64,000 nt of DNA from Flavobacteriaceae bacterium 3519-10 (GTDB lineage: Bacteria > Bacteroidota > Bacteroidia > Flavobacteriales > Weeksellaceae), in NCBI GenBank assembly GCA_000023725.1, contig CP001673.1:630342-694341 (forward strand). Direction: 5' to 3'. The notes beneath the pieces were generated by a model. That model made no database searches. It saw only the letters and a program-made list of their open reading frames with translations, and had not been told where the DNA came from. Each line of letters starts with the position of its first letter. Positions within the stretch are counted from its first letter, which is position 1. Both the position numbers and the translations under genes were made by a program. Shown in pieces: positions 698 through 38,364 of this stretch.

Positions 698-1768
698 TTA
701 CAGCGTATCGAGAGGGCTCTTAATCTGCGCTTTCGCTATATCGGTAACGTGGGTGTAGATCTGAGTGGTTTTGATGGAGTTGTGCCCCAGCAGTTCCTGT
801 ATAAAGCGGATGTCGGTGCCCGTTTCCAGCAGATGAGTGGCAAAGCTGTGGCGGAGACCATGGATTCCTAATTTCCTGTGGATGCCCGCCTTTTCCACTG
901 CTTTTTTAAAAACGGCCTGCGCTGAGCGTACGGAATACTGACCGCCATGCTGGCCTTCAAAAAGAAAGGTTTTCGGCCGGTATGCCAGATAGTATGCGCG
1001 AAGTTCTGGAAGCAGACTTTCGGGCAGAACGGTGATGCGGTCTTTTTTGCCTTTTGCCTGTTCGATGCGCACGCGTTTTCCAGCACCATCGATATCCGTC
1101 AGTTTCAATGCTACCACTTCGCTTACACGCAGCCCCATGCCGTAACATACTTTCAGAATCATCAAATGTTTAGGATTTTCTACGGACAATATTATTTTTT
1201 TTATTTCGGCTTTGCTCAGCATTTTTGGCAGCTGCTGCTTTTTTTTAGGCCGCGGGATGTCGAAAAACATTTTGTGGCGGTGCAGCACCTGTTCGAAGTA
1301 GAATTTTACTGCATTGATCCGGCTGTGGATTTCGCTTTCGGAGAGTTTCAGGTTTTCGTGGCAGTACAGAAAATAGGCGCGGAGGCGTTCTGGTGACAGT
1401 TCGTTGACGGGATGACCTTTCAGCACATAGAGCAGTTGGGCAAATTCGATGCTATAGGTGCGCAGGGTACTTTGGCTATAACCCTTCAGGACGAGATGTT
1501 CCTGAAAACGTTTGAATTCGGGCAAATTGATGAGGTTAATTTTTGCGAGTACGGCTTTGCCGGTTATTTCTTCGGGGAGGCCGAAAAGTTCGCGGTAGTG
1601 TCTACGGTCTGCCACATACCATTTTTTCTGTGTAGCGGACCACCGGGCTTTGGTTTGTGCCCGGAGGTGGGCGATAAGCTCGTGATCCTTTTCGAATGCT
1701 ATCCAGATCACGCTGGAGCCATGATGGCTACCCGGCGAAAATCGGTATCTTTTATCGGTGAAATCCAT
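698..1768 (-). CDS. Tyrosine recombinase (Xer-like), putative cassette recombinase
   Basis: The 356-residue protein has all catalytic residues of the tyrosine recombinase family: Arg214 in GLRVSE, Lys239 in KGKKDR, His303 and Arg306 in HGLRHSFATHLL, His329 in LLGHN and the nucleophile Tyr338 in TTQIYTHV. Residues about 1-65 form a small extra N-terminal module common in Bacteroidota integrases; a SAM-like core-binding domain follows (about 83-165). Only 58 residues separate KGKKDR from HGLRH, so the insertion that marks IntI is absent. It points away from the cassettes, with its promoter and an attI-like core between. Excision and integration of cassettes is inferred from this arrangement. 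An unrelated resident recombinase beside the array is the alternative. Confidence 0.9.
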   Translation of the reverse strand: MDFTDKRYRFSPGSHHGSSVIWIAFEKDHELIAHLRAQTKARWSATQKKWYVADRRHYRELFGLPEEITGKAVLAKINLINLPEFKRFQEHLVLKGYSQSTLRTYSIEFAQLLYVLKGHPVNELSPERLRAYFLYCHENLKLSESEIHSRINAVKFYFEQVLHRHKMFFDIPRPKKKQQLPKMLSKAEIKKIILSVENPKHLMILKVCYGMGLRVSEVVALKLTDIDGAGKRVRIEQAKGKKDRITVLPESLLPELRAYYLAYRPKTFLFEGQHGGQYSVRSAQAVFKKAVEKAGIHRKLGIHGLRHSFATHLLETGTDIRFIQELLGHNSIKTTQIYTHVTDIAKAQIKSPLDTL

Positions 1769-1859
1769 AGGTGAGGCTTCGTTTTTGGGATATGTTAAAA
1801 AAAGATTATCTGGTACGGCGGACGCAGAATATGGTGGTAATAATATGTTTTACGCAATT

Positions 1860-1889
1860 CAAAAGTACATATAAAGCGTTAGAAAGCAA
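1860..1889 (-). promoter_or_regulatory. Promoter of the recombinase
   Basis: On the minus strand, TTG (1887-1889) and TACTTTTG (1860-1867) are 19 bp apart, matching the Bacteroidota consensus TTG-N19-TAnnTTTG. Transcription should begin near 1853, leaving a leader of about 85 nt before ATG 1768. A GCGTTAG motif (1876-1882) lies in the spacer, so recombinase binding there could repress its own promoter; that is inference. Confidence 0.65.
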
Positions 1890-1970
1890 TAGATTAGAAG
1901 TGTTTTTATTTTTGGATGAGAAACAATCGGTATTTCGGATAATATACATATATTTACGCGTTAGCCGCAA
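1876..1970 (+). other. attI-like region with two GCGTTAG cores
   Basis: GCGTTAG occurs at 1876-1882 and 1958-1964, 82 bp apart in direct orientation. The second is where cassette 1 begins (G1960|T1961). Both fit the cassette core G|TT-N7-A (TTAGAAAGCA and TTAGCCGCAA). Neither is preceded by an attC-type palindrome, as expected for a primary insertion site. The first copy could be an accessory binding site or the remnant of a lost cassette. Confidence 0.6.
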
Positions 1971-2001
1971 GCACTCCAAAAATGCCGCATAAAAACTTAC
2001 C

Positions 2002-2490
2002 ATGGGAAATCTAGTTCATTTAATAATTAGGAATTACAATCAGTTCTTGAAAGATTCAGACCCGAAATTGAGATTCGTTGGTGATAATTTATCTTCTAAT
2101 AATTTGGAGGATATAGTAAATGACTTTTATCAATCGAATTGGGAGATATTTGTTGAATCAGCTATTTGCATTCCAGGTAAAGAGTATCTTCAAATTTATG
2201 GAGAAGGCGCTGATTGCAACGATAATAGCAGTCGTGTTTCATTCCCTGATAAATTTGCAACGCATCGAATAATATGTATATCTAAAAACGGACAAAAAAT
2301 AATAGATCTATTTTCAAATGTGGTTGTCGAACTTGAACATTATACCTTTAATTCTTTCGCCAATATTCCGGATGCTGAAGGTGTAAATTCGAGATTCAAT
2401 GGCATTTTATTGGAACATAATGTTAAAGATGAATACATCCTTATAGATTTAGATAAAGTTGATTTTGAAAAAGCTACTATTTTACCATAA
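2002..2490 (+). CDS. Cassette 1: unknown 162-residue protein, paralogue of the cassette 40 protein
   Basis: Soluble acidic protein without a signal peptide. It shares long stretches with the cassette 40 product (33127-33606), including IYGEGADCN followed by SSRV and the block YTFNSFA; both proteins end shortly after a GILLEHN/AILLEHN motif. The function is not recognised. As the first cassette it should be closest to any array promoter. Cassette span 1961-2630, ATG 41 nt after the junction. Confidence 0.75.
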   Translation: MGNLVHLIIRNYNQFLKDSDPKLRFVGDNLSSNNLEDIVNDFYQSNWEIFVESAICIPGKEYLQIYGEGADCNDNSSRVSFPDKFATHRIICISKNGQKIIDLFSNVVVELEHYTFNSFANIPDAEGVNSRFNGILLEHNVKDEYILIDLDKVDFEKATILP

Positions 2491-2505
2491 ATATCATGTG
2501 CCAGC

Positions 2506-2636
2506 GGCTAACAATGGCTATAAAAAATTGCTGGTTTTCAACGCTTTAAGACAATACTCAGGTATTTGAAAGTTTGCGATGTTTTATTATCTTTCCGGTT
2601 CGATGCCGCAACTTCTCATAGCCGAAACCGTTAGCT
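2506..2636 (+). repeat. attC-1
   Basis: R'' GCGGCTAAC is complementary to the cassette 1 start TTAGCCGC. Inner arms TGGCTAT and ATAGCC pair. Sequence is unlike the main families but the length (131 bp) is typical. Cassette 2 begins at T2631. Confidence 0.8.
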
Positions 2637-2649: not shown

Positions 2650-3180
2650 ATGACTTTATTACAATTTAAGAAATATTTAGATCAAGAGTATCTGTTCAAT
2701 AAAGTTCTTGATTATATACTTGCGGTTTTGATTCTAAGCTGCGGACTGTTTCTTATTTATGAATCTTTGCTAACTGATTGGTCAAATCAGCTGAGTTTGG
2801 GACTATTTATATCTACTTTACTTCTGGCAACATATTGTGTTTATTTTGGTATAGTTGGTTTCTTTAGAATTCCAAACGTGACACAAATTCACTCAATAAT
2901 AAATAATGATGGAAGAGAAAATAATAGAAAAAGAGTTTATGATCTCGCAAAGAAGTTTAATTTGTTTACTTATCCATACGAAATAAGAGATAATATTATA
3001 ATGTTCGATACAAAGAAGATTTTATTTGGAAACAAAGAATTGTTCTTCTATTATAACGATAAGGGAATTTATTTTAACGTACAGCACAAAAATTATAGAG
3101 ATCCAAAATATGGATATTATTATTCTACCAAGAAATTAACAAACAGAATTATATCGGAATTGAAAGACAGCAGCAGCTAA
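2650..3180 (+). CDS. Cassette 2: membrane protein of unknown function
   Basis: 176 residues with two hydrophobic helices (about 21-39 and 48-71) and a charged, tyrosine-rich cytosolic or periplasmic C-terminal half. No family is recognised. The stop codon TAA lies inside the R'' box AGCTAAC of attC-2, so the gene fills its cassette completely. ATG is 19 nt after the cassette junction, a typical leader length here. Confidence 0.75.
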   Translation: MTLLQFKKYLDQEYLFNKVLDYILAVLILSCGLFLIYESLLTDWSNQLSLGLFISTLLLATYCVYFGIVGFFRIPNVTQIHSIINNDGRENNRKRVYDLAKKFNLFTYPYEIRDNIIMFDTKKILFGNKELFFYYNDKGIYFNVQHKNYRDPKYGYYYSTKKLTNRIISELKDSSS

Positions 3181-3306
3181 CAAGCTATTTCTATTAGCGG
3201 GGTTGAAGTTTACATTTATAAAGATTTTCGCTAATTGATCATTTTGGTATATTTACAAAGACCTGTTATAAAAAGCCCCGCCAACAGAAATACCCAAACG
3301 TTGGCA
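3175..3306 (+). repeat. attC-2 (family A)
   Basis: R'' AGCAGCTAAC complements the cassette 2 start TTAGCTGCT. Arms TATTTCTATTAGCGGGG and CCCCGCCAACAGAAATA pair apart from a small internal bulge; this is the commonest type in the array. Confidence 0.9.
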
Positions 3307-3351
3307 GTAATTTTACTGAAGCGAATTTTGCATTATTTAAAACCATTTAAT

Positions 3352-3774: not shown

Positions 3775-3781
3775 AAACTAC

Positions 3782-3914
3782 TGCCAACACGGTATTTCTA
3801 TTAGCGGGGTCGGAAGTTTCTATCATCAAGATTTTTGTTAATTGTTCTATTTGTTATATTTACAAAGACCTGTTATCATAATCCCCGCCAACAGAAATAC
3901 CCAAACCGTTAGCT
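3782..3914 (+). repeat. attC-3 (family A)
   Basis: R'' TACTGCCAAC complements the cassette 3 start TTGGCAGTA; the next pair is the A/C mismatch. The site ends CCG|TTAGCTGC at 3908/3909, the left edge of the duplicated segment. Confidence 0.9.
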
Positions 3915-3966
3915 GCAACCAATTGAAACCAACGTGACAAAAAATTTACCATATAAAGTATCTTTA

Positions 3967-4096
3967 TGCTAACAGTTGGATATTTCTGTTGGCGGGGATT
4001 ATGATAACTTGTTTTTGTAAATATCATAAAAAAACAACTAGCGAAAATCTTGATGATGTAGACTTCAACTCCGCTAATAGAAATATCTTGTTAGCT
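3967..4096 (-). repeat. Inverted attC (family A), copy 1
   Basis: Read on the minus strand this is a complete family A site: TGCAGCTAAC on the R'' side, GCGGAG and CCCCGCC arms, and GTTAGCA at the R' side. R'' matches the cassette start TTAGCTGCA at 3909, so the site belongs to that cassette and was reversed with it. Confidence 0.85.
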
Positions 4097-4106
4097 GCAG
4101 CCAAAA

Positions 4107-4592
4107 TTAGAGATAAACTCTATCATCTTCTTTGGAAGCTATCTTTTTCTTTATTTTTTGAAATTCCTTATTGTTTTCAAGTATTTTATACGCTTTTGAT
4201 TCAAACCTGAGATAGGGAATGTGGGTCTCTCTTACTTTTAACGAATCTGCAAAGCCAGAAATACTAACTGTTGATTTATCTATCGCAAAATATTTAATAC
4301 GTATTGAAGTTCCAATATCTGGATGAATACTTATTCCATCATTATTATAAATTACTAAATCCCCATTTAATTTCTTCAGGTTATTATCAAAGAATAATTT
4401 AGCAAATTCTATTTTTTCCTTTTTAGAAAACTTAATAGAATCCATCATTTTAAAATAATCACTTTCAATTTTACCATTTTTTAGATTAATATCAAAGTCA
4501 CTATTTGAAAGTGTGACATCATAATTTTTAAAATCATCTAAATACTCTTCATTACTTTTTTCACAATGTGTAAAAAGCATAAATAATATAAA
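4107..4592 (-). pseudogene. Inverted lipoprotein gene body, cut from its start, copy 1
   Basis: The minus frame encodes FILFMLFTHC then EKSNEEYLDD and about 140 more residues, that is, the second half of a lipoprotein signal peptide plus the mature protein, with no proper start. The missing start lies on the plus strand at 3934-3966 (GTG, reading MTKNLPYKVSL). Joined, they give a 172-residue lipoprotein with acceptor Cys21. In the present orientation the gene should be silent, unless translation begins at the internal ATG 4580, which would give a form without a signal peptide. Function unknown. Confidence 0.75.
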
Positions 4593-5375: not shown

Positions 5376-5384
5376 AAATACTGG

Positions 5385-5516
5385 TGCTAACAGGGGTTTT
5401 GCAATGGTGGGGCGAAACTGCAAAGTTCAACGGTATTTCTTCGATTGAACTTTTGTACAAAATTGAAGATTTGTGCTTCGATTGCCCCACCATCGCAAAG
5501 CCCCGAAACGTTATCT
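5385..5516 (+). repeat. attC-4 (family C)
   Basis: Arms TTTTGCAATGGTGGGGCG and GCCCCACCATCGCAAAG. R'' side ACTGGTGCTAAC fits a cassette start TTAGCACCA, which is supplied only if the upstream inversion is undone. Confidence 0.85.
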
Positions 5517-5539
5517 GCAATACTTTTACAACTATACGT

Positions 5540-6133: not shown

Positions 6134-6139
6134 TACTGC

Positions 6140-6335
6140 AGATAACATAGGTTTTGCAAAAGCGGGGTGAATTTCTCTTGCGTTGAAGTTTTTATCATAT
6201 TTTGTCGCAAAAAACCATTTTATTCCGCTAATTTTTGTATTTTATCAAAAGAAAATGGTTTTTTGCTAAGATTTGTGTTTATAGAAAGTTTCGTCTTTCT
6301 TTTCCCCGCCTTCGCAAAGCCTTTTTCCGTTACCT
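6140..6335 (+). repeat. attC-5, long form
   Basis: 196 bp. Outer arms GGTTTTGCAAAAGCGGGG and CCCCGCCTTCGCAAAGCC. The centre holds a perfect 15-bp inverted repeat (6207-6221 with 6252-6266, a 30-nt loop). R'' TGCAGATAAC complements the start TTATCTGCA. Confidence 0.85.
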
Positions 6336-6362
6336 GCAATTTTAAAGAACCGAACGCAAAAG

Positions 6363-6641: not shown

Positions 6642-6709
6642 CATTTCAAATTCCTTTGATAATAACGTATTTATCATACATAATAATTAACGCAAAAGAA
6701 AAAAACTGC

Positions 6710-6836
6710 AGGTAACAAAGTATTTCTACAAGCGGGTAGGAAGTTTTCATCAAAGATTTTAGCGGTTAATTAAGTTTTCAGCAAGTACAAGTTTTCGTAT
6801 TTTTATCCCGCCTGCAGAAATACCCGGCCGTTATAG
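6710..6836 (+). repeat. attC-6 (family B)
   Basis: Arms TATTTCTACAAGCGGG and CCCGCCTGCAGAAATA. R'' TGCAGGTAAC complements the cassette 6 start TTACCTGCA, with the A/C mismatch next. Confidence 0.9.
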
Positions 6837-6844
6837 GGCATAGT

Positions 6845-7492: not shown

Positions 7493-7505
7493 CAAGAACT
7501 ACGCC

Positions 7506-7637
7506 CTATAACAGCACCTACCCAAAAGGCGGGGTTTCGTGTTCCAAAGACAGTTTTGTGATTAATCAAACATTAGTTTTTCAAATCAAGTTTTGTGGTA
7601 AAAGTCCCGCCCTTCGGGTAGCTGCAAAACGTTACCA
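7506..7637 (+). repeat. attC-7 (family D)
   Basis: Arms CACCTACCCAAAAGGCGGGG and CCCGCCCTTCGGGTAGCTGC. R'' GCCCTATAAC complements the start TTATAGGGC. Confidence 0.85.
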
Positions 7638-7678
7638 GCAATATTAAAACGACACCCTACAATAAATAAACAGAATAA

Positions 7679-9145: not shown

Positions 9146-9152
9146 ATACTGC

Positions 9153-9284
9153 TGGTAACAAGGTATTGCCAAAAGCGGGACTGAACGGCTTCGATTGGAC
9201 ACTTGTACAAGGTTCAACATTCGTTCTTCGATTGACCTTTTGTTATAAAATTCCCCGCCTTCGGCAATACCCAAACCGTTACCA
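9153..9284 (+). repeat. attC-8 (family G)
   Basis: Arms GGTATTGCCAAAAGCGGG and CCCCGCCTTCGGCAATACC. R'' TGCTGGTAAC complements the start TTACCAGCA. Confidence 0.85.
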
Positions 9285-9292
9285 GCAATCCT

Positions 9293-9793: not shown

Positions 9794-9805
9794 TAAAACG
9801 TCTGC

Positions 9806-9933
9806 AGGTAACACGGTATTTCTACAAGCGGGTTTGAAGGTTTCAGCGAAGGTTTCAGCGAGTAATTCAGTTTTTAGCAAGTAGAAAGTTTTCGTATTTT
9901 TATCCCGCCTGCAGAAATACCCAACCGTTGTAC
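9806..9933 (+). repeat. attC-9 (family B)
   Basis: Arms TATTTCTACAAGCGGG and CCCGCCTGCAGAAATA; the centre has a short tandem duplication (GGTTTCAGCGA-like). R'' TGCAGGTAAC differs from the cassette start TTACCAGCA at one position beyond the fixed mismatch. Confidence 0.85.
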
Positions 9934-9941
9934 GACATTTT

Positions 9942-10466: not shown

Positions 10467-10473
10467 AAACGTC

Positions 10474-10603
10474 GTACAACACGCTATTTCTATTAGCGGG
10501 GTTGAAGTTTACATCATGATGATATCGCTAGTTGTTCATGTTGTTATATTTACAAAGACCAGTTATCATAATCCCCGCCAACAGAAATACCCAACCGTTA
10601 CCT
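10474..10603 (+). repeat. attC-10 (family A)
   Basis: R'' GTCGTACAAC complements the start TTGTACGAC over nine bases, an unusual barcode that shows how strictly the two cassette ends match. Confidence 0.9.
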
Positions 10604-10638
10604 GCAAGCATAGACAACACAATCACGAAAGAAAAACA

Positions 10639-11694: not shown

Positions 11695-11722
11695 CAACAC
11701 TGACTGACGATAGAATGCCAGC

Positions 11723-11854
11723 AAGTAACAGCACCTACCCAAAAGTGGCGGTTCAGTGGTTAAATCAAGCTTTGTGCTACTATCAAAGTTTGTGCTTGGT
11801 TGACAGTGAAGTGCTTCGAAATCGCCACCTTCGGGTAGCTGCAAAACGTTAGCA
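11723..11854 (+). repeat. attC-11 (family D variant)
   Basis: Arms CACCTACCCAAAAGTGGCGG and CGCCACCTTCGGGTAGCTGC. R'' side CAGCAAGTAAC fits the start TTACCTGCAA with extra mismatches. Confidence 0.8.
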
Positions 11855-11864
11855 GAAATGTTAA

Positions 11865-12413: not shown

Positions 12414-12423
12414 AAAACACTTC

Positions 12424-12554
12424 TGCTAACAAGGTATTTCTATTAGCGGGGGTGAAGTTTGCATCATAAAGATTTTCGCTTGTTGTTCATTTAGTTATAT
12501 TTATAAAAACCAGTTATAATAATCCCCGCCAACAGAAATACCCAACCGTTGGTG
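12424..12554 (+). repeat. attC-12 (family A)
   Basis: Typical A arms. R'' CTTCTGCTAAC complements the start TTAGCAGAA; A/C mismatch at position 10. Confidence 0.9.
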
Positions 12555-12597
12555 GCAATATTGACAGACCAAACAGAACGAAATAACTTTAAAGCAA

Positions 12598-13251: not shown

Positions 13252-13261
13252 AAAATACTGC

Positions 13262-13394
13262 CACCAACAAGGGTTTTGCGTCAGGCGGGCTGAAGTGCAA
13301 AATTCAACAGTAGTTTTTCAATTAAACTTTAGTAATAAAATCAACATTTGTGCTTCGAAATCCCGCCCGAACGCAAAGCCCCAAAACGTTACCT
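13262..13394 (+). repeat. attC-13 (family E)
   Basis: Arms GGGTTTTGCGTCAGGCGGG and CCCGCCCGAACGCAAAGCCC. R'' TGCCACCAAC complements the start TTGGTGGCA. Confidence 0.85.
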
Positions 13395-13428
13395 GCAATT
13401 TTAAAAAATGACCGTTAAATATTAAAAG

Positions 13429-13830: not shown

Positions 13831-13845
13831 ATCAAAAAAAACTGC

Positions 13846-13976
13846 AGGTAACAAGCTATTTCTATTAGCGGCGTTGAAGTTTACATCATAGAGATTTTCG
13901 CTAGTTGTTCTTTTTATTATATTTACAAACACCAGTTATAATAATCCCCGCCAACAGAAATACCCAAACGTTACCT
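13846..13976 (+). repeat. attC-14 (family A)
   Basis: R'' TGCAGGTAAC complements the start TTACCTGCA. The left arm reads GCGGCG instead of GCGGGG, one mismatch in the inner stem. Confidence 0.9.
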
Positions 13977-13998
13977 GCAACTTTAAAAAATCGCTCGA

Positions 13999-14472: not shown

Positions 14473-14490
14473 AATTATAGAGAAAGCTGC

Positions 14491-14619
14491 AGGTAACTCG
14501 GTATTTCTACAAGCGGGTATGAAGTTTTCAATTGAAGATTTTAGCGGTTAATGAAGTTTTTAGCAAGTAGAATGTTTTCGTATTTTTAGCCCGCCTGCAG
14601 AAATACCCAACCGTTATGT
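14491..14619 (+). repeat. attC-15 (family B)
   Basis: R'' GCTGCAGGTAAC complements the start TTACCTGCA. It is followed by TCGG rather than the usual ACGG or AAGG. Confidence 0.9.
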
Positions 14620-14638
14620 GCAACCTTAAAAGACGACA

Positions 14639-15157: not shown

Positions 15158-15166
15158 AAAGGCAGC

Positions 15167-15297
15167 ACATAACACGGGTTTTGCGTCAGGCGGGTGACGT
15201 GCAAACTTGGAGCTTTGTGCTTCTATTCAAGTTTAGTGCTGGCAGACAGTTTTGTGCTCCGAAACCCGCCCGAACGCAAAGCCCGAAAACGTTATGT
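15167..15297 (+). repeat. attC-16 (family E)
   Basis: Arms GGGTTTTGCGTCAGGCGGG and CCCGCCCGAACGCAAAGCCC. R'' GCACATAAC complements the start TTATGTGC. Confidence 0.85.
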
Positions 15298-15305
15298 GCA
15301 ACCGT

Positions 15306-15851: not shown

Positions 15852-15864
15852 GAGCCACGGCTGC

Positions 15865-15995
15865 ACATAACAAAGTATTTCTATTAGCGGGGTTGAAGTT
15901 TACATCATAAAGATTTTCGCTAGTTGTTCATTTTGTTATATTTACAAAAACCAATTATAATAATCCCCGCCAACAGAAATACCCGGCCGTTAGCT
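15865..15995 (+). repeat. attC-17 (family A)
   Basis: R'' GCTGCACATAAC complements the start TTATGTGCA. Confidence 0.9.
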
Positions 15996-16122
15996 GTAAT
16001 GCGACAAAAATCTCGTCAAGTAACATGTAATTGAAAATTTATTATTCTCTGAAAAAATTAGGAATGAATTAAAAATTTCAAAACGTTCCTAACGATTTGT
16101 TAGCATTAAAAACTCAAAATAC

Positions 16123-16350: not shown

Positions 16351-16360
16351 AAAGCACTAC

Positions 16361-16554
16361 AGCTAACAGTGTATTTGCAAAAAACGGGCTTGACGGTTTC
16401 TTTCGGAATCTAGTTAATAAAATATGCAAAAATGCTTTTCATCTTTCTATTTTTACTAATTTAGAAAGCTGAAAAAGCATTTTGCTCCGGGTGATTTACC
16501 TTTCCACTTTTGGTTTGCAGTAGCCCGTTCTTCGCAAATACTTTTTCGTTGTCC
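16361..16554 (+). repeat. attC-18, long form
   Basis: 194 bp. Outer arms GTATTTGCAAAAAACGGGC and GCCCGTTCTTCGCAAATAC. A long internal hairpin (GCAAAAATGCTTTTCA against TGAAAAAGCATTTTGC) extends the centre, as in attC-5. R'' CTACAGCTAAC complements the start TTAGCTGTA. Confidence 0.85.
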
Positions 16555-16573
16555 GCCATTTTAAAAACATCGC

Positions 16574-17119: not shown

Positions 17120-17128
17120 CAAAACGGC

Positions 17129-17259: not shown

Positions 17260-17293
17260 GTCAGGCTAAAAGACGACACCGAAACAGAAACGA

Positions 17294-17932: not shown

Positions 17933-17945
17933 AAGAAGCCCGAAC

Positions 17946-21070: not shown

Positions 21071-21082
21071 AAGAAGAGCAGC

Positions 21083-21214: not shown

Positions 21215-21222
21215 GTAATATT

Positions 21223-22197: not shown

Positions 22198-22210
22198 AAA
22201 GAAATACTAC

Positions 22211-22342: not shown

Positions 22343-22372
22343 GTGATTTTATAACGACCTACCGCAATCAAA

Positions 22373-22987: not shown

Positions 22988-22995
22988 AAAACCAC

Positions 22996-23127
22996 AGCTA
23001 ACAAGGTATTGCCAAAAGCGGGGCTGAACGTATTCGATTGGACATTTGTGCAAGGTTCAGCATTCGTTCTTCGATTGAACTTTTGTGCTACAAATCCCCG
23101 CCTTCGGCAATACCCAAAACGTTATAA
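22996..23127 (+). repeat. attC-26 (family G)
   Basis: Arms GGTATTGCCAAAAGCGGGG and CCCCGCCTTCGGCAATACC. R'' CCACAGCTAAC complements the start TTAGCTGTG. Confidence 0.85.
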
Positions 23128-23200
23128 GTAACTTTAACCGAAGCTGTCCAAAAGATAATTCTGCTAAAAAGCTGTATAAATTTCTTTCTGCTTCGGTAAG

Positions 23201-23344
23201 CTACTTTTCTTCATCAGTTATAATATAAGTGTTTTTAAAAACTATAAAAGCCTTGTAACCATTAATAGTTGTTCTTTCACCAAATGTTTTTCCTAACCAT
23301 TCCACTATAAAAAATGGTAGTATTTTATAAATATTTCGTATCAT
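23201..23344 (-). CDS. Cassette 27, second antisense gene: 47-residue protein
   Basis: A short minus-strand frame starting at 23344, MIRNIYKILPFFIVEWLGKT, and ending at TAG 23201-23203. Its ATG overlaps the TGA of the upstream DUF551 gene (ATGA), a hallmark of translational coupling. It lies wholly within cassette 27 and was likely missed because of its size. Function unknown. Confidence 0.6.
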   Translation of the reverse strand: MIRNIYKILPFFIVEWLGKTFGERTTINGYKAFIVFKNTYIITDEEK

Positions 23345-23565
23345 AAAATAATATTATTAGGGGGTTTTGGCAATTCCATCCAATGAGAAATATATAGTAT
23401 TTCATCTAAATTTTTAGAGTTTAAATACCAATCATCATCTTCTAAATATCCAACATTTATCTCAAATCCTAAAATATCGTCATCATCTCTATATTTAGGC
23501 ACACAATAAACCAATACAGACTTACCTGACTTTGGTTTTTCTATTTTAACATTTATCCAATCCAT
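23341..23565 (-). CDS. Cassette 27, first antisense gene: DUF551-type protein
   Basis: 74 residues: MDWINVKIEKPKSGKSVLVY at the start and ISHWMELPKPP near the end, the two ends of the small DUF551 domain known mainly from phage genomes. It runs against the direction of the array, starting just inside the R'' end of its cassette, and is followed by a 47-residue gene in ATGA overlap. The pair therefore needs its own promoter or faces the array transcript as antisense. Confidence 0.65.
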   Translation of the reverse strand: MDWINVKIEKPKSGKSVLVYCVPKYRDDDDILGFEINVGYLEDDDWYLNSKNLDEILYISHWMELPKPPNNIIL

Positions 23566-23577
23566 AATAAAAGCTAC

Positions 23578-23710
23578 TTATAACAGCAATTACACGCTAT
23601 TGCTACATTGTGATTAATTTAATTTTGGTTTTGTACCTTAAAGTTTCGTGTTAAACCGAAAGATAGTTTTGGTTTTTACGCAACAGACGTGTAGTTGCAA
23701 TACGTTACCA
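23578..23710 (+). repeat. attC-27 (singleton family)
   Basis: Arms CAGCAATTACACG and CGTGTAGTTGC, unlike all others, but 133 bp long as usual. R'' GCTACTTATAAC complements the start TTATAAGTA. Confidence 0.8.
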
Positions 23711-24160
23711 GCAATACGCCTAAAAACGCAAAAAATGAAAAATAGAAAAATTAAATGAAAAAGATTCTCTTAATGCTTTTTGTGATTTTACAATTCAGTT
23801 GTAATAAAGTTTCACATAATAAATTAGGTATAGATAACGCAAAAAAAGAACTTGAAAGTGCATTAAAAGACACAACAAAAATAGCTATTCTTGATAATAA
23901 TGAACTTTTAATTAAAGAAGAAAATACAGCTATAAAAGTAGCTGAACCAATATTATTTGAAATTTATGGAAGATCAAAAATTGAAGGTGAAAAACCATAC
24001 GAAGCGTATTTGATAAAAAATTATTGGGTAATTAATGGAACTGTAGACAGATATTCTTTTGGTGGAGCTTTTTCAATTATTATTGACGCAAGAAACTCAA
24101 AAGTTATTAACGTAATCCATTATAAATAAAATAAGTACTGCTGGTAACAAGATATTTCTA
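23702..24160 (+). repeat. Duplicated cassette (copy 1 of 2; other at 28109-28567)
   Basis: About 459 bp appear identical to 28109-28567: the complete gene, the cassette start and the R'' side through GATATTTCTA of the attC left arm. Beyond that, copy 1 continues as family A (TTAGCGGG) and copy 2 as family B (CAAGCGGG). Confidence 0.85.
23755..24129 (+). CDS. Cassette 28: lipoprotein with NTF2-fold immunity-like domain, copy 1
   Basis: 124 residues. Signal MKKILLMLFVILQFSCNK, acceptor Cys16. The mature domain fits the NTF2-fold immunity protein pattern: AEPILFEIYGRSKIEG, PYEAYLIKNYWVINGT, then GGAFSIIIDARNSKVINV with a final HYK. Such proteins protect against secreted polymorphic toxins; here it is exported and has no toxin neighbour. 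An identical copy is at 28162-28536. Confidence 0.7.
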   Translation: MKKILLMLFVILQFSCNKVSHNKLGIDNAKKELESALKDTTKIAILDNNELLIKEENTAIKVAEPILFEIYGRSKIEGEKPYEAYLIKNYWVINGTVDRYSFGGAFSIIIDARNSKVINVIHYK

Positions 24161-24272
24161 TTAGCGGGATTGAAGTTTACATCATAGAAATTTTCGCAAA
24201 TTGTTCTTACCTTATTATTTACAAAAAGCAGTTATCATAATCCCCGCCAACAGAAATACCCAACCGTTGGCA
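24142..24272 (+). repeat. attC-28 (family A)
   Basis: R'' TACTGCTGGTAAC complements the start TTACCAGCA. Shares its first bases with attC-33 because of the cassette duplication. Confidence 0.85.
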
Positions 24273-24294
24273 GTAATTTTAGAAATGACCGGAA

Positions 24295-24894: not shown

Positions 24895-24913
24895 TAACGA
24901 ATAAAAAAACTAC

Positions 24914-25046
24914 TGCCAACAAGGGTTTTGCAATAGTGGGGCGAAACTGCAAAGTTCAACGGTAGTTCTTCAGTTCAACTGTTGTGCTAAATTGAAGATT
25001 TGTGCTTCGGTTTCCCGCCCGAACGCAAAGCCCCGAAACGTTACAG
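24914..25046 (+). repeat. attC-29 (hybrid of families C and E)
   Basis: Left arm TTTTGCAATAGTGGGGCG is family C; right arm CCCGCCCGAACGCAAAGCCC is family E. The inner stem therefore pairs less well. R'' TACTGCCAAC complements the start TTGGCAGTA. Confidence 0.8.
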
Positions 25047-25069
25047 GCAATACTATCAAAAGCACGAAT

Positions 25070-25648: not shown

Positions 25649-25656
25649 AGTACTAC

Positions 25657-25787
25657 CTGTAACAGTGTATTTCTATTAGCGGGGTTGAAGTTTACATCAT
25701 AGAGATTTTTGCTAGTTGTTCTTTCTACTATATTTACAAAGAGCAACTATAATAATCCCCGCCAACAGAAATACCCAAACGTTAGCT
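25657..25787 (+). repeat. attC-30 (family A)
   Basis: R'' TACCTGTAAC against the start TTACAGGCA: one barcode mismatch. Ends ACG|TTAGCTGC at 25781/25782, the left edge of the second inverted cassette. Confidence 0.85.
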
Positions 25788-25839
25788 GCAACCAATTGAA
25801 ACCAACGTGACAAAAAATTTACCATATAAAGTATCTTTA

Positions 25840-25969
25840 TGCTAACAGTTGGATATTTCTGTTGGCGGGGATTATGATAACTTGTTTTTGTAAATATCAT
25901 AAAAAAACAACTAGCGAAAATCTTGATGATGTAGACTTCAACTCCGCTAATAGAAATATCTTGTTAGCT
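25840..25969 (-). repeat. Inverted attC (family A), copy 2
   Basis: Same as 3967-4096. Its minus-strand R'' (TGCAGCTAAC) matches the cassette start TTAGCTGCA at 25782. Confidence 0.85.
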
Positions 25970-25979
25970 GCAGCCAAAA

Positions 25980-26465
25980 TTAGAGATAAACTCTATCATC
26001 TTCTTTGGAAGCTATCTTTTTCTTTATTTTTTGAAATTCCTTATTGTTTTCAAGTATTTTATACGCTTTTGATTCAAACCTGAGATAGGGAATGTGGGTC
26101 TCTCTTACTTTTAACGAATCTGCAAAGCCAGAAATACTAACTGTTGATTTATCTATCGCAAAATATTTAATACGTATTGAAGTTCCAATATCTGGATGAA
26201 TACTTATTCCATCATTATTATAAATTACTAAATCCCCATTTAATTTCTTCAGGTTATTATCAAAGAATAATTTAGCAAATTCTATTTTTTCCTTTTTAGA
26301 AAACTTAATAGAATCCATCATTTTAAAATAATCACTTTCAATTTTACCATTTTTTAGATTAATATCAAAGTCACTATTTGAAAGTGTGACATCATAATTT
26401 TTAAAATCATCTAAATACTCTTCATTACTTTTTTCACAATGTGTAAAAAGCATAAATAATATAAA
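25980..26465 (-). pseudogene. Inverted lipoprotein gene body, cut from its start, copy 2
   Basis: Same 162 codons as 4107-4592. In this copy the frame happens to stay open into the neighbouring cassette, giving an apparent 199-residue protein from 26579 whose first part is antisense to the cassette 31 gene and not real. The true start (GTG, MTKNLPYKVSL) is on the plus strand at 25807-25839. Confidence 0.75.
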
Positions 26466-26976: not shown

Positions 26977-26983
26977 AAACTGT

Positions 26984-27115
26984 TGCTAACAGCAGCTACC
27001 CAAAAGTGGCGGTTCAGTGGTTAAACCAAGCATTGTGCTTATATCAAAGTTTCTGCTTGGTTGAAAGTGAATCGCTTCGAAATCGCCACCTTCGGGTAGC
27101 TGCAAAACGTTACCA
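26984..27115 (+). repeat. attC-31 (family D variant)
   Basis: Arms CAGCTACCCAAAAGTGGCGG and CGCCACCTTCGGGTAGCTGC. R'' CTGTTGCTAAC fits TTAGCAACA, the start that appears only after undoing the inversion. Confidence 0.85.
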
Positions 27116-27139
27116 CCAATGCTAAAAGACAGACAACGT

Positions 27140-27976: not shown

Positions 27977-27985
27977 AAGCACTGG

Positions 27986-28117
27986 TGGTAACAGGCGTTT
28001 GGCAAAAAAGCGGGTTCTGTGCTTAAATGAAGATTTGTGCTTCGTATCAAGTTCAGTGCTGGCAAACAGTTTAGTGCTTCGAAATCCGCTTCTTCGCCAA
28101 GCGCCAAAACGTTACCA
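27986..28117 (+). repeat. attC-32 (family F variant)
   Basis: Arms GGCGTTTGGCAAAAAAGCGG and CCGCTTCTTCGCCAAGCGCC. R'' ACTGGTGGTAAC complements the start TTACCACCA. Confidence 0.85.
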
Positions 28118-28567
28118 GCAATACGCCTAAAAACGCAAAAAATGAAAAATAGAAAAATTAAATGAAAAAGATTCTCTTAATGCTTTTTGTGATTTTACAA
28201 TTCAGTTGTAATAAAGTTTCACATAATAAATTAGGTATAGATAACGCAAAAAAAGAACTTGAAAGTGCATTAAAAGACACAACAAAAATAGCTATTCTTG
28301 ATAATAATGAACTTTTAATTAAAGAAGAAAATACAGCTATAAAAGTAGCTGAACCAATATTATTTGAAATTTATGGAAGATCAAAAATTGAAGGTGAAAA
28401 ACCATACGAAGCGTATTTGATAAAAAATTATTGGGTAATTAATGGAACTGTAGACAGATATTCTTTTGGTGGAGCTTTTTCAATTATTATTGACGCAAGA
28501 AACTCAAAAGTTATTAACGTAATCCATTATAAATAAAATAAGTACTGCTGGTAACAAGATATTTCTA
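28109..28567 (+). repeat. Duplicated cassette (copy 2 of 2; other at 23702-24160)
   Basis: Identical over about 459 bp to 23702-24160, diverging inside the left arm of the attC. Normal cassette movement would carry the whole attC, so the swap points to exchange within attC. Confidence 0.85.
28162..28536 (+). CDS. Cassette 33: lipoprotein with NTF2-fold immunity-like domain, copy 2
   Basis: Residue-for-residue identical to the cassette 28 protein (23755-24129), including the 50-nt leader. The lack of any substitution implies a recent duplication or gene conversion. Two copies could raise dosage or simply mark a mobile cassette. Confidence 0.7.
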   Translation: MKKILLMLFVILQFSCNKVSHNKLGIDNAKKELESALKDTTKIAILDNNELLIKEENTAIKVAEPILFEIYGRSKIEGEKPYEAYLIKNYWVINGTVDRYSFGGAFSIIIDARNSKVINVIHYK

Positions 28568-28676
28568 CAAGCGGGTATGCTGCTTTCATCGAAGATTTTA
28601 GCGATCAATTAAGATTTTAGCAAGTAGAAAGTTTTCGTGTTTTTATCCCGCCTGCAGAAATACCCAACCGTTATCT
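28549..28676 (+). repeat. attC-33 (family B)
   Basis: Begins like attC-28 (TAACAAGATATTTCTA) and continues as family B (CAAGCGGG). R'' TGCTGGTAAC complements the start TTACCAGCA. Confidence 0.85.
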
Positions 28677-28703
28677 GTAATCGCATAAAAAGCACGTTAT
28701 CAA

Positions 28704-29237: not shown

Positions 29238-29250
29238 TAATTGCGACTAC

Positions 29251-29381
29251 AGATAACAGCGGTTTTGCAATAGTGCGGGATTTCCGCAAGTTTAAAGATT
29301 TTAGATATTTCGACGTTTAGTTTATAATAAAAAGATTTGGCATATTTAGCCGCACCATCGCAAAGCAGCAAACCGTTACCT
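29251..29381 (+). repeat. attC-34 (family H)
   Basis: Arms CGGTTTTGCAATAGTGCGG and CGCACCATCGCAAAGC. R'' CTACAGATAAC complements the start TTATCTGTA. Confidence 0.85.
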
Positions 29382-29456
29382 GCTATGTTAAAAATAATCG
29401 TCAAAAATTGCTTTAAAATACAGTTACATAAAATATTGTATTAAAAAAATGAGTAA

Positions 29457-29834: not shown

Positions 29835-29843
29835 AAACACAGC

Positions 29844-29972
29844 AGGTAACACGGTATTTCTACAAGCGGGTATGAAGTTTTCATCGAAGATTTTAGCGGT
29901 TAATTAAGTTTTTAGCAAGTAGAAAGATTTCGTATTTTTAGCCCGCCTGCAGAAATACCCAAAAAGTTACCA
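29844..29972 (+). repeat. attC-35 (family B)
   Basis: R'' CAGCAGGTAAC complements the start TTACCTGCT. The right end reads AAG|TT rather than CG|TT, the only such variant. Confidence 0.85.
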
Positions 29973-29996
29973 GCAATATCACAAACCACGTCTAAA

Positions 29997-31076: not shown

Positions 31077-31089
31077 AAATAGATACTGC

Positions 31090-31220
31090 TGGTAACAGAG
31101 TATTTCTATTAGCGGGGTTGAAGTTTACATCATAAAGATTTTTGCTAATTGTTCATTTTGTTACATTTACAAAGACCGGTTATCAGAATCCCCGCCAACA
31201 GAAATACCCAACCGTTGGCA
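31090..31220 (+). repeat. attC-36 (family A)
   Basis: R'' TACTGCTGGTAAC complements the start TTACCAGCA. Confidence 0.9.
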
Positions 31221-31245
31221 GCAATTTCAGAAAAGCTCGTTTAGG

Positions 31246-31752: not shown

Positions 31753-31761
31753 AGAAACTAC

Positions 31762-31888
31762 TGCCAACACGGTATTTCTACAAGCGGGTAGGAAGTTTTC
31801 ATCAAAGATTTTAGCGGTTAATTAAGTTTTGAGCAAGTAGAAAGATTTCGTATTTTATCCCGCCTGCAGAAATACCCAACCGTTATGC
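31762..31888 (+). repeat. attC-37 (family B)
   Basis: R'' TACTGCCAAC against the start TTGGCAGCA: one barcode mismatch. Confidence 0.85.
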
Positions 31889-31912
31889 GAAAGCAATTCA
31901 GACTCCGCAAAA

Positions 31913-32431: not shown

Positions 32432-32442
32432 CATTTGCCTTC

Positions 32443-32573
32443 GCATAACACGGTATTTCTATTAGCGGGGTTGAAGTTTACAGCATAAAGATTTTCGCTT
32501 ATTGTTCATTTGGTTATATTTACAAAGATTAGTTATAAAAATCCCCGCCAACAGAAATACCCAACCGTTAGCA
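32443..32573 (+). repeat. attC-38 (family A)
   Basis: R'' CTTCGCATAAC complements the start TTATGCGAA. Confidence 0.9.
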
Positions 32574-32618
32574 GAAAGCGCAGAAAATTCGCGTAAATAA
32601 GATCTATGACACATCATC

Positions 32619-32918: not shown

Positions 32919-32961
32919 TAAAGTTATTTTCAAACACGTTAAATGAAAAAGTAGCGCCATC

Positions 32962-33094
32962 TGCTAACCGCCGCTAACCAAAATTGCCGAGTTTTCGGTA
33001 GCCGGAAGTTGCGATTTCACGAAGAAACATTATCTTGGCAGAAGAACTCAGTCCTCTTTCATCGGCAACTTCGGTTAGCGGCCAAACGTTAGCC
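32962..33094 (+). repeat. attC-39 (singleton family)
   Basis: Arms CCGCTAACCAAAATTGCCGA and TCGGCAACTTCGGTTAGCGG. R'' TCTGCTAAC complements the start TTAGCAGA. The arm itself contains a second CTAAC, so two R''-like cores lie 11 bp apart. Confidence 0.8.
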
Positions 33095-33126
33095 GCAAGC
33101 ACCAGAAAACCATGTAAACTAGCAAA

Positions 33127-33606: not shown

Positions 33607-33620
33607 ACAAGCGTGCCAGC

Positions 33621-33750
33621 GGTTAACCTTACCTAACTGCCATGGCTGGTTTTGAGTATATTAATGTTTATATTTATCAGGAATAATTATCTTGGCAGAC
33701 GATACTCAGTTATTAATTCCGCCACGAGCAGTTAGCCCTAGTCGTTGGTG
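33621..33750 (+). repeat. attC-40 (singleton family)
   Basis: Arms CTAACTGC and GCAGTTAG. R'' GCGGTTAAC against the start TTAGCCGC: one mismatch. Cassette 41 begins at T33745. Confidence 0.75.
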
Positions 33751-33786
33751 GCAAGTGTAACGGACGACAAAAACAAATGAAATTAG

Positions 33787-34464: not shown

Positions 34465-34491
34465 CCAAATGGGACAGACAAGAACACCAGC

Positions 34492-34623
34492 CACCAACAG
34501 GCGTTTGGCTCAATGGCGGGTGACGTGGCTAATTGAACATTCTACCTCGCATCAACTTTTGTAGTATATTGACAGTTTAGTGCTCCGAATTCCGCCACTG
34601 CGCCAAGCGCCAAAACGTTATGC
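34492..34623 (+). repeat. attC-41 (family F)
   Basis: Arms GGCGTTTGGCTCAATGGCGG and CCGCCACTGCGCCAAGCGCC. R'' GCCACCAAC complements the start TTGGTGGC. Confidence 0.85.
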
Positions 34624-34661
34624 GTAAGCGTAGGACGACCGACAAACAAACCAAATAGAAT

Positions 34662-35114: not shown

Positions 35115-35126
35115 GAAACGCCATAC

Positions 35127-35258
35127 GCATAACAGCACCTACCCAAATGGCGGGGTTTCGTGTTCCAAAGACAGTTTTGTGATTAATCAAACATTAGTTT
35201 TTCAAATCAAGTTTTGTGGTAAAAGTCCCGCCCTTCGGGTAGCTGCAAACCGTTAGCC
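35127..35258 (+). repeat. attC-42 (family D)
   Basis: Arms CACCTACCCAAATGGCGGGG and CCCGCCCTTCGGGTAGCTGC. R'' ATACGCATAAC complements the start TTATGCGTA; the mismatch is offset by one base. Confidence 0.8.
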
Positions 35259-35292
35259 GTCAGTTTACAGAACGACAACCCATAGACAAACA

Positions 35293-35958: not shown

Positions 35959-35971
35959 AACAAAACCGAAC

Positions 35972-36103
35972 GGCTAACAAGGGTTTTGCAATAGTGGGGC
36001 GAAACTGCAAAGTTCAACGGTATTTCTTCGATTGAACTTTTGTGCAAAATTGAAGATTTGTGCTTCGATTGCCCCACCATCGCAAAGCCCCGAAACGTTA
36101 CAC
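35972..36103 (+). repeat. attC-43 (family C)
   Basis: Arms TTTTGCAATAGTGGGGCG and GCCCCACCATCGCAAAG. R'' ACGGCTAAC complements the start TTAGCCGT; the mismatch is offset by one base. Confidence 0.8.
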
Positions 36104-36136
36104 GAAAGCGCATACCCAAAGCCGAACAAAACTCTT

Positions 36137-36718: not shown

Positions 36719-36735
36719 CAAATCATTGCGCCTTC

Positions 36736-36866
36736 GTGTAACATGTTATTTCTATTAGCGGGGTTGAAGTCTACATCATAAAGGTTTTCGCTAATTGTTC
36801 ATTTCGTTATATTTACAAAAACCAGTTATAAAAATCCCCGCCAACAGAAATACCCAACCGTTATCT
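36736..36866 (+). repeat. attC-44 (family A)
   Basis: R'' CTTCGTGTAAC complements the start TTACACGAA. Confidence 0.9.
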
Positions 36867-37079
36867 GCCACGGCACCAAAAATTACACCTACATCACCGT
36901 CAGTTTTAGATGGTGATTTTTTGAATCCGTTTTACCTCGCACGGAAATGCCGCGGCAGATAACAGCGGTTTGGCAAAAAAGCGGGAGGAAGTTTTCCGTT
37001 TGGAAATTTTGTTTAGATTTGAAAGGCGGTTTTATTAAGAAGATTCTCGCAGCCCGCTTCTGCGCCAAGCCGCCGACCG
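36861..37079 (+). other. Cassette 45: gene-less cassette
   Basis: Only 96 bp lie between the junction and the R'' box at 36957, with no open frame longer than a few codons. The cassette start TTATCTGCC and R'' GGCAGATAAC match, so it is a true cassette. Its one recognisable content is the intrinsic terminator at 36893-36922. Confidence 0.75.
36893..36922 (+). terminator. Intrinsic terminator carried by cassette 45
   Basis: Nine-pair stem (36893-36901 with 36909-36917, one G-T pair), 7-nt loop and six T (36917-36922). It faces with the array and would stop readthrough from upstream cassettes. Confidence 0.7.
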
Positions 37080-37085
37080 TTGTGC
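36957..37085 (+). repeat. attC-45 (family F variant)
   Basis: Arms GCGGTTTGGCAAAAAAGCGG and CCGCTTCTGCGCCAAGCCGC. R'' GGCAGATAAC complements the start TTATCTGCC. Confidence 0.85.
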
Positions 37086-37111
37086 GCTATTTTAATCCAT
37101 CATACCGAAAG

Positions 37112-37780
37112 ATGAACGAAATATTAGAAATTAACGGTACAATATTTTTAAAAATTAATTCTGATTCCATCGAGGAAAATCTAAGGTTTGCTGAAAAAAA
37201 TAAAATCTTTAATTTTCTTATTTCAGCAAGAATTGGAAACTATAAACTGAATAATATTGACTTTGTAAAAGATTTTTCTCAGCTAGAAATGCTTTATATT
37301 TCAGTTTATGAAAATATAAATTATCAAGCTATTAAACACCTAAAAAATCTTAATACTTTAAGTATTGATGTGTTATCTAATGACACCCAGGAAATTGACT
37401 TTTCTAACTTATTAAATCTCCAAAAACTTGTTTTTACCTGGCGCCCAAAAGCTAAAAATATTCATAGTTTAAAACTATTAAAGGACTTAACAATAACAAA
37501 GTTTTCAAAAATTAATCTGGCATTACTCTCATCTTTAGAAAACTTAGAAGATTTAGGAATTTTTCAGTCTAAAATTGAGAATTTAGAAGGAGCAGAAAAA
37601 TTACTTAATTTAAAAAAACTAACTATTGTTGATTGTAAAAAACTTGAAAACATTGATTCGCTTGGAAGTTTAGAAAATCTTCATCAAATCAAAATACATA
37701 ATTGTGGGAATATTAAAAAGCCAGAAAATATTACGTTCATTAACAAAATAGAACTTCTCGAATCATCAAAATTTATATAA
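37112..37780 (+). CDS. Cassette 46: leucine-rich-repeat protein
   Basis: 222 residues from ATG 37112; the in-frame start at 36947 precedes attC-45. Irregular leucine-rich repeats of about 22 residues run through the protein: LKNLNTLSIDVLS, LLNLQKLVFTWR, LENLEDLGIFQSKI, LLNLKKLTIVDCKKL, LENLHQIKIHNCGNI. No signal peptide, so a cytosolic binding protein is likely. Confidence 0.75.
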   Translation: MNEILEINGTIFLKINSDSIEENLRFAEKNKIFNFLISARIGNYKLNNIDFVKDFSQLEMLYISVYENINYQAIKHLKNLNTLSIDVLSNDTQEIDFSNLLNLQKLVFTWRPKAKNIHSLKLLKDLTITKFSKINLALLSSLENLEDLGIFQSKIENLEGAEKLLNLKKLTIVDCKKLENIDSLGSLENLHQIKIHNCGNIKKPENITFINKIELLESSKFI

Positions 37781-37785
37781 ACATC

Positions 37786-37917
37786 GCACAACACGCTATT
37801 TCTATTAGCGGGGTTGAAGTTTACAACATAAAATTTTTCGCGAGTTGTTCTTTTAGTTATATTTTACAAAAACCAATTATCATAATCCCCGCCAACAGAA
37901 ATCCCCAATCGTTAGCT
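37786..37917 (+). repeat. attC-46 (family A), last attC of the array
   Basis: R'' TCGCACAAC against the start TTGTGCGCT, nearly complementary. The right arm has CC in place of the usual TACCC. Last palindrome before the chromosome. Confidence 0.85.
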
Positions 37918-37944
37918 GCAAGCATTCCCAAACTCACGCAAAAA

Positions 37945-38364
37945 ATGAATATTGAAATTTTAACAATAACACCAATTTCTGGACAGTTTGTAGAATTCCA
38001 TTTTGGAGAAAATTTCATTGAATCTTTATGGGTTGATTTTAATATTTCTGAAGAAAATCATTCGATAGGATGTTTTTCAAAAGATTACGAGAATGCAATA
38101 AATAAAGTCTTATACAATGAAAAAGACAAAACTTGTTGCGTAGTTGCTGGCGGTAAATGTTATTTGCTAAACTTTGAAAACAAAAACTTGATTTTTGAAA
38201 CTGATGAATATCCAATTATCCAAAGTTTAGTTCAATCCTCTGAATATTACTTCTTAGGAAATTATTATAGTGTTTACATTTTAAACCAAAATGGATTAGT
38301 AAAGGAAATTGAACCTGATATAATGGTAGATGGAATTTATTTAGAGCATAAAGAAAGTGGATGA
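37945..38364 (+). CDS. Cassette 47: truncated last cassette gene
   Basis: 139 residues, soluble, strand-rich (FLGNYYSVYILNQNGLVKEI). The cassette starts normally (TTAGCTGCAAGC) but has no attC: after GIYLEHKESG the sequence changes to chromosomal character and the frame ends at TGA 38362-38364. The protein is probably missing its C-terminus, and the cassette should be immobile. Confidence 0.6.
   Translation: MNIEILTITPISGQFVEFHFGENFIESLWVDFNISEENHSIGCFSKDYENAINKVLYNEKDKTCCVVAGGKCYLLNFENKNLIFETDEYPIIQSLVQSSEYYFLGNYYSVYILNQNGLVKEIEPDIMVDGIYLEHKESG

Follow-up and report, generated by a model that had tools for sequence, protein, structure and literature searches.

The stretch of DNA analysed here (the window: 64,000 nt, positions 630342–694341 of the single-contig 2.77-Mb genome of Flavobacteriaceae bacterium 3519-10) very probably carries an integron-like gene-capture platform, in which 47 cassettes (1961–38364, plus strand) would be moved at G^TT by a tyrosine recombinase without the IntI insertion. 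The recombinase, P0001 (356 aa, 698–1768, minus strand), is divergent from the array, as described in the initial annotation of this DNA. The locus works like an integron; it is not a member of the IntI integron as defined, because the enzyme has no IntI insertion and lies outside the IntI clade. We read the enzyme family and its sites as a distinct integron class. The units, the cut position, the complementarity of unit ends, the sharing of units between arrays and the association of enzyme and sites are directly supported at the level of sequence.

The cassette array

A covariance model (R1), built from an alignment of 24 hand-picked sites of the window, matched 46 plus-strand sites between 2503 and 37920 with scores of 31.8–133.8 bits, 22 of them outside the seed; weaker R1 matches on the opposite strand at identical places were disregarded. 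Two further sites were found on the minus strand (3964–4099 and 25837–25972), and the same scan found no sites to the right of 37920 in the remaining ~26 kb of the window. Cutting at G^TT yields 47 units with a median length of 705 bp, the last one without a site of its own, so that the 46 forward palindromes and the 47-cassette array reported initially are borne out by both model and cutting. As in IntI-type integrons, the units form a tandem of same-orientation cassettes with a site each: the main open reading frame (ORF) is on the plus strand in 45 of the 47, and nearly all hold one gene. Two units have no clear forward gene (23122–23704 and 36861–37079, the latter just 219 bp long), and the two additional sites are reversed. 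In 2-kb steps, G+C content is 0.28–0.37 within the array versus 0.41–0.47 outside.

In an integron, the excised circle rebuilds a site from the arms at both ends of one cassette. Pairing was scored at the seven positions lying outside the AAC/GTT core. On average, the end of a window unit is complementary to that unit's own start at 6.46 of these 7, versus 3.50 for the start of its physical neighbour, the next unit, and likewise 3.50 for other units; the own-end value was reached in none of 10,000 permutations of the window units. For 186 cassettes of other loci the values were 6.24 (own end) versus 3.44 (neighbour), and in eight further loci from other genera, with 2–11 cassettes each, own-end means ranged from 4.0 to 6.6 and neighbour means from 2.4 to 5.0. 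The complementary starts and ends noticed at the outset are therefore above chance, and, as in an IntI-type integron, an excised circle would carry a full hairpin.

Window cassettes recur at 97.4–99.6% identity in a second array of the same genome and in genomes G015 and G028. We examined 93 shared blocks (≥90% identical, 250–3000 bp, starting ≤1500 bp from a cut), several of which are copies of one cassette. Of their 186 ends, 61 fell within 10 nt of a predicted G^TT cut; 36 shifted controls gave 1.3 on average and never more than 8. Because of the own-end pairing and of the shared blocks that end at cuts, the units are read as cassettes. The hairpins, being similar palindromes between genes, might instead be a mobile repeat family like bacterial interspersed mosaic elements (BIME) or repetitive extragenic palindromic (REP) sequences. 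We consider this hardly credible, since repeats predict neither a unit start complementary to the unit's own downstream hairpin end, nor shared blocks ending at G^TT, nor a single orientation beside one recombinase family.

Two exact duplications lie within the array. One of 459 bp (23702–24160 = 28109–28567) begins at G^TT and suggests, from the place where its copies part (see below), exchange between hairpins in addition to exchange at the cut sites. The other, of 686 bp (3907–4592 = 25780–26465), also begins at a cut and carries the reversed site, at 3964–4099 in the first copy and at 25837–25972 in the second; a minus-strand ORF (4107–4580) is present in at least the first copy. This segment looks like a cassette that was inserted backwards and copied afterwards.

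Few Pfam families were matched by the 43 window cassette proteins, immunity-type domains (Imm33-like, Imm-NTF2-2 and Imm74) being included, and PADLOC gave matches to a SAVED/HNH effector, SduA and PDC-M68A, one member each. The second array (G000:C1:1291073–1311272, loci L044 and L045) carries such sites on its minus strand and lacks a recombinase of the family. It is interrupted by two copies of an IS91-like-looking element with its own tyrosine recombinase ORF, and genes that we would name dndC- and dndD-like from sequence reading lie just beyond it. No transposase was noticed in the window array, where no search aimed at transposases was made, in line with the initial statement on this array; the two insertions belong to the second array.

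Structure of the hairpin sites

The structure was assessed on an alignment of 150 sites (149 of them distinct), the best among 200 matches from 36 other loci. In the distinct sites, pairing in the inner helix reaches 97.1%, and 15 of the 16 pairs there show changes on both sides. Over all 26 pairs of the structure, 87.4% of cells are paired versus 62.6 in shuffled alignments, and the covariation score is 0.572 versus 0.160 when shuffled and at most 0.088 when slid, figures that the fitting of the alignment to the covariance model favours. Within this varying helix an A.C mismatch stands in all 150 aligned sites; at a second place one side is C in 149 of 150 and the opposite side A in 113 of 150, and the examined part of the model alignment contains no fixed single-base bulge. 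A top-strand A.C corresponds to a bottom-strand G.T, which makes the two strands unequal. When the 46 window sites were folded in silico, the bottom strand was the more stable one in 42, and in 43 when the sites were taken in circle form.

The arms pair at positions 1–10, lose pairing at position 11 and regain it at 12–15; at position 11, a C faces an A in 42 of the 46 cassettes of the window and in 164 of 193 elsewhere. Canonical attC, as described in the portion of PMC2727003 on which we draw, has extrahelical bases, an unpaired central spacer and a 7-nt pairing extended to 9–11, and is cut at the equivalent place, on the bottom strand. The present sites retain an asymmetric unpaired spacer. 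Unlike canonical attC, their arms pair over 10 + 4 nt around a fixed mismatch, and the A.C mismatch (150/150) seems to stand at the place of the extrahelical bases. From these alignments we infer that the sites are marked by mismatch instead of by extrahelical bases. A second hairpin length class of ~200 nt, about 60 nt longer, was seen, for example in L084, L094 and the window (6137–6338).

The recombinase

P0001 is 82% identical to a recombinase of Kaistella montana. Its catalytic set, with positions taken from alignments, is presumably R214, K239, H303, R306, H329 and Y338. Against TIGR02249, the curated IntI model, it scores 197.6 bits, below the cut-off of 265, and aligns in two stretches (profile positions 3–176 and 241–315), while the positive control IntI1 scores 508.6 bits in a single stretch. 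The interval from the catalytic Lys to HxLRH is 64 residues in P0001, 106 in IntI1 and 70–74 in five Xer-type rows; the IntI-specific insertion in the catalytic domain is absent. That the interval is shorter than in IntI and XerD-type enzymes was thus rightly seen, but by our count its length is 64 and not the 58 first given. The N-terminal module is present in P0001 but not universal, being absent from ~280-aa open frames of the family.

In the tree, IntI is monophyletic (100/99) and the P0001 family lies outside it, the IntI sampling being narrow (nine rows: eight IntI1-like and IntI4). Together with the missing insertion and the score below the curated cut-off, this upholds the claim that the recombinase is not IntI. 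Nor is it XerA, XerC or XerD by profiles or tree: it is below the cut-off of every Xer model (two relatives narrowly pass NF040815), stands apart from Xer in the tree (96/98), and differs in the Lys-His interval and the N-terminal module. The genome has in addition two separate Xer genes, one XerD over the cut-off and a second Xer that we take for XerC.

The family might descend from IntI with the insertion secondarily lost, which would make the locus a divergent branch of the ordinary integron. P0001 and IntI1 have a C-terminal SPLD/SPFD tail in common, the best Protein Data Bank match of P0001 by E-value is IntI4 (2a3v), and the tree sets IntI and the family both apart from Xer. We nevertheless regard such a descent as unlikely, since IntI is a clade of its own and an approximately unbiased (AU) test rejected IntI plus the P0001 family as one clade (p 0.0099, for a group named after the tree had been seen). 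The AU result supports the words "independently evolved" of the initial annotation only in part, since loss of integron function in the lineages between IntI and the P0001 family is possible. That the integron arose twice is a proposition for which belief and doubt seem to us evenly balanced: a non-IntI clade would have independently gained hairpin-cassette shuffling with its own strand code, would stock the Bacteroidota and would have reached at least one member of the Bacillota. Two archaeal relatives, L211 and L212 (Pacearchaeota and Aenigmatarchaeota), carry a KSPLD tail and have no sites matched by the models.

Occurrence of enzyme and sites across genomes

In a set of 149 genomes that spans genus, family and order, 67 contained the recombinase (E 1e-60) and 95 the sites (1e-3), and none contained IntI over the TIGR02249 cut-off. 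Besides the window's own, 79 recombinase loci were inspected with up to ~9 kb per side. Sites lie beside the recombinase gene in 60 of them: only upstream of a divergent gene in 40, only downstream and co-oriented in 19, and on both sides in 1. At least one side has <3 kb of contig in 15 of the 19 site-less loci. Twenty XerC/XerD control loci gave one weak match, at a locus where a stop-interrupted recombinase remnant is also present.

Across the GTDB phylum, 395 genomes were scored, with thresholds of 1e-45 for the recombinase and 1e-4 for the sites and with the model cut-off for IntI; 178 had sites, 113 the recombinase and 105 IntI. Sites were present in 72 of the 85 genomes with the P0001-family recombinase alone and in 24 of the 28 with both enzymes. 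As related genomes are not independent, the odds ratios of 13.8 for the P0001 family and sites (Fisher p 5.6e-25) and 0.54 for IntI and sites (p 0.012) are to be read with that in mind. Canonical IntI is common elsewhere in the phylum; the window's class has a single IntI-positive genome, G181, which is without sites. Neither of the two patterns named initially as speaking against a new class was found: arrays do not regularly come with a canonical IntI instead, and the recombinase does not occur mostly without arrays.

These counts also bear on a reading of the units as decayed canonical attC cassettes (clusters of attC sites lacking integrases, CALIN), maintained by an IntI elsewhere, with the recombinase a bystander. 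IntI makes long arrays of just this attC-like kind, with ends at G^TT, and it is frequent in the phylum. Such a reading is still very improbable, given the lack of IntI over the cut-off in all 149 genomes of genus, family and order, the phylum counts (sites in 72 of 85 genomes that have just the P0001 family, in 12 of 77 that have just IntI) and the position of the sites, which lie on one side of the recombinase and in one orientation in 59 of the 60 site-bearing loci. In addition, a class 1 integron control (L132, the one integron tried) had no match to model R1 or R2.

The initial annotation had proposed a second integron class in Flavobacteriia; a distinct class is supported, but its range is wider: further classes in the GTDB phylum belong to it, as does a single locus from the Bacillota. 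Of 80 named loci, the best among 590 listed relatives, 37 showed one or more sites at E 0.01, including loci of Flavobacterium, Pedobacter, Chitinophaga, Algoriphagus, Cyclobacterium and Fusibacter. In Fusibacter sp. 3D3 (L193, Bacillota), a 39% identical relative precedes a run of sites, among them several near-copies. On plasmid NZ_CP041688.1 of Chryseobacterium sp. SNU WT5 (L133), the recombinase is followed by co-oriented cassettes and five sites.

Platform and proposed mechanism

In 14 close orthologues, conservation extends up to about CRTATATTTGAGTGTT and divergence begins immediately afterwards. A different block is conserved in 17 loci with the co-oriented layout, mostly ending in CATATAAACAAGTT, again with divergence following. 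The blocks ending at GTT in both layouts are predicted to be attI sites, so that, judged by conservation, a putative attI lies beside the integrase as in known integrons. In the window, the conserved attI-like block ends exactly at the start of the first cassette; the predicted attI (1938–1966, plus strand) has the conserved CATATATTTACGCGTT, with interspecies divergence directly after GTT and a predicted cut at 1960/1961.

The pattern TTG-N18-21-TAnnTTTG, which we take to be the Bacteroidota-type promoter consensus, was searched in 47 platforms, several of them near-identical. As a candidate cassette promoter (Pc) it was found in 22 of the 47 (shuffled mean 0.72, maximum 4) and overlies attI in the platforms checked; as a candidate recombinase promoter it was found in 20 of the 47 (shuffled mean 1.08, maximum 3). 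In the window, the predicted recombinase promoter (1860–1889, TTG-N19-TAnnTTTG read on the minus strand) is conserved in orthologues. The predicted -7 box of Pc, TATATTTA (1949–1956, plus strand), lies inside attI and is TATATTTG in many relatives.

The following mechanism is the likely one. A P0001-family recombinase would excise and insert cassette circles at G^TT. Its substrate would be the bottom strand folded into a hairpin, and the partner attI or another hairpin; own-end complementarity would give every circle a proper hairpin. The A.C mismatches, which are G.T wobbles on the bottom strand, may mark strand and end for cutting, replacing extrahelical bases. A new cassette would join at attI and be transcribed from the Pc lying in it. 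Catalysis by the recombinase, the single-stranded substrate, the mismatch code and the use of Pc are the parts that we infer.

Several observations weigh against an integron-like platform run by this enzyme. The link that would make the recombinase the catalyst is one of association. Of the 79 recombinase loci, 4 are site-less although both flanks measure 3 kb or more, that of genome G085 included. Sites also occur in 12 of 77 phylum genomes with IntI alone and, at the chosen thresholds, in 70 of the 205 where neither enzyme was found. The greater part of the shared-block ends (125/186) lie away from any predicted cut, and the 459-bp duplicate diverges within the hairpin (24160/28567) rather than at the next cut. 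Two of five covariation measures were no better than in shuffles (pairs changed on both sides, 22 vs 21.3; pair types, 64 vs 63.1). The window's own Pc boxes are imperfect, and its platform does not contain the full pattern. Lastly, the IntI insertion is called essential for integron function in the portion of PMC8138268 consulted, and P0001 would have to manage without it.

Comparison with known integrons

Like the IntI integron (class 1, Vibrio superintegron), the present system has a divergent recombinase, an attI-like junction, tandem one-gene cassettes, hairpin sites with R and L arms, a G^TT cut and own-end complementarity. It also has arrays without a neighbouring enzyme and reverse-layout variants; a reverse intI layout exists in known integrons as well. 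The sections of PMC9668308 and PMC8138268 used here regard the IntI insertion as necessary or essential for integrons to function; the latter calls it essential even though it is incompletely conserved in an integron-like subgroup. IntegronFinder, according to the same part of PMC9668308, needs the profile of the IntI insertion for an IntI call, and the whole class would therefore escape such searches. As far as the relevant part of PMC9024848 goes, Bacteroidetes were previously known for integrases without cassettes (In0) and then for one complete integron, in Salinibacter ruber. Set against that single complete Bacteroidetes-proper integron, the presence of the sites in 178 of 395 phylum genomes would point to a second gene-capture system that has apparently been overlooked. 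The system lets strand choice on a folded site be studied without the IntI insertion and extrahelical bases.

Gene insertion in Riemerella anatipestifer

The available part of PMC13148043, from 2026, describes the insertion of a gene in R. anatipestifer ATCC 11845 without flanking homology. The gene ends in a 140-bp 3' tail with an attC-like fold, and the neighbours of its insertion locus are relE, hthR and cdf. Its authors scanned the flanking 100 kb, found no integron, left the mechanism open and proposed site-specific recombination; no recombinase is named for the insertion in that part of the report. The homology-independent insertion concerns aph(3')-IVb, with lnu(H) and blaRATA as cited there.

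Genome G085 has a recombinase 98% identical to one from R. anatipestifer, and an array headed by an attI core (~2148486), in which 40 site matches were counted, a few of them more than once because the contig ends overlap. The distance from recombinase to array is ~0.5 Mb when taken across the origin and 1.6 Mb in the opposite direction. In this array, a toxin-like gene (PF05973), which we read as RelE-like, and a helix-turn-helix (HTH) gene are followed by a site (2156955–2157093) and a cation-efflux gene (PF01545). The named neighbours of the insertion locus would thus surround one of the present sites, and G085 is presumably the strain of PMC13148043. The present system is a candidate for both the enzyme and the site of the homology-free gene uptake reported in R. 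anatipestifer.

Coordinates of sites and predicted cuts

All window sites are R1 matches. On the plus strand, sites 1 (2503–2639; 80.3 bits, seed), 2 (3172–3309; 119.9 bits, non-seed) and 3 (3779–3917; 124 bits, seed) are followed by site 4 (5382–5519) and by site 5, a long form of 202 nt (6137–6338; 56.2 bits). Sites 6 to 17 are at 6707–6840, 7503–7640, 9150–9287, 9803–9936, 10471–10606, 11720–11857, 12421–12557, 13259–13397, 13843–13979, 14488–14622, 15164–15300 and 15862–15998. Site 18 is again of the long form (16358–16557; 35.7 bits), and sites 19 to 26 are at 17126–17262, 17943–18080, 18661–18798, 19409–19544, 20229–20366, 21080–21217, 22208–22345 and 22993–23130. Site 27 (23575–23713) scores 47 bits; sites 28 to 39 are at 24139–24275, 24911–25049, 25654–25790, 26981–27118, 27983–28120, 28546–28679, 29248–29384, 29841–29975, 31087–31223, 31759–31891, 32440–32576 and 32959–33097. 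The weakest, site 40 (33618–33753; 31.8 bits), precedes sites 41 to 46 at 34489–34626, 35124–35261, 35969–36106, 36733–36869, 36954–37088 and 37783–37920.

Predicted cuts 1 to 16 fall after positions 1960, 2630, 3300, 3908, 5510, 6329, 6831, 7631, 9278, 9927, 10597, 11848, 12548, 13388, 13970 and 14613. Cuts 17 to 32 are predicted after 15291, 15989, 16548, 17253, 18071, 18789, 19535, 20357, 21208, 22336, 23121, 23704, 24266, 25040, 25781 and 27109, and cuts 33 to 47 after 28111, 28670, 29375, 29966, 31214, 31882, 32567, 33088, 33744, 34617, 35252, 36097, 36860, 37079 and 37911.

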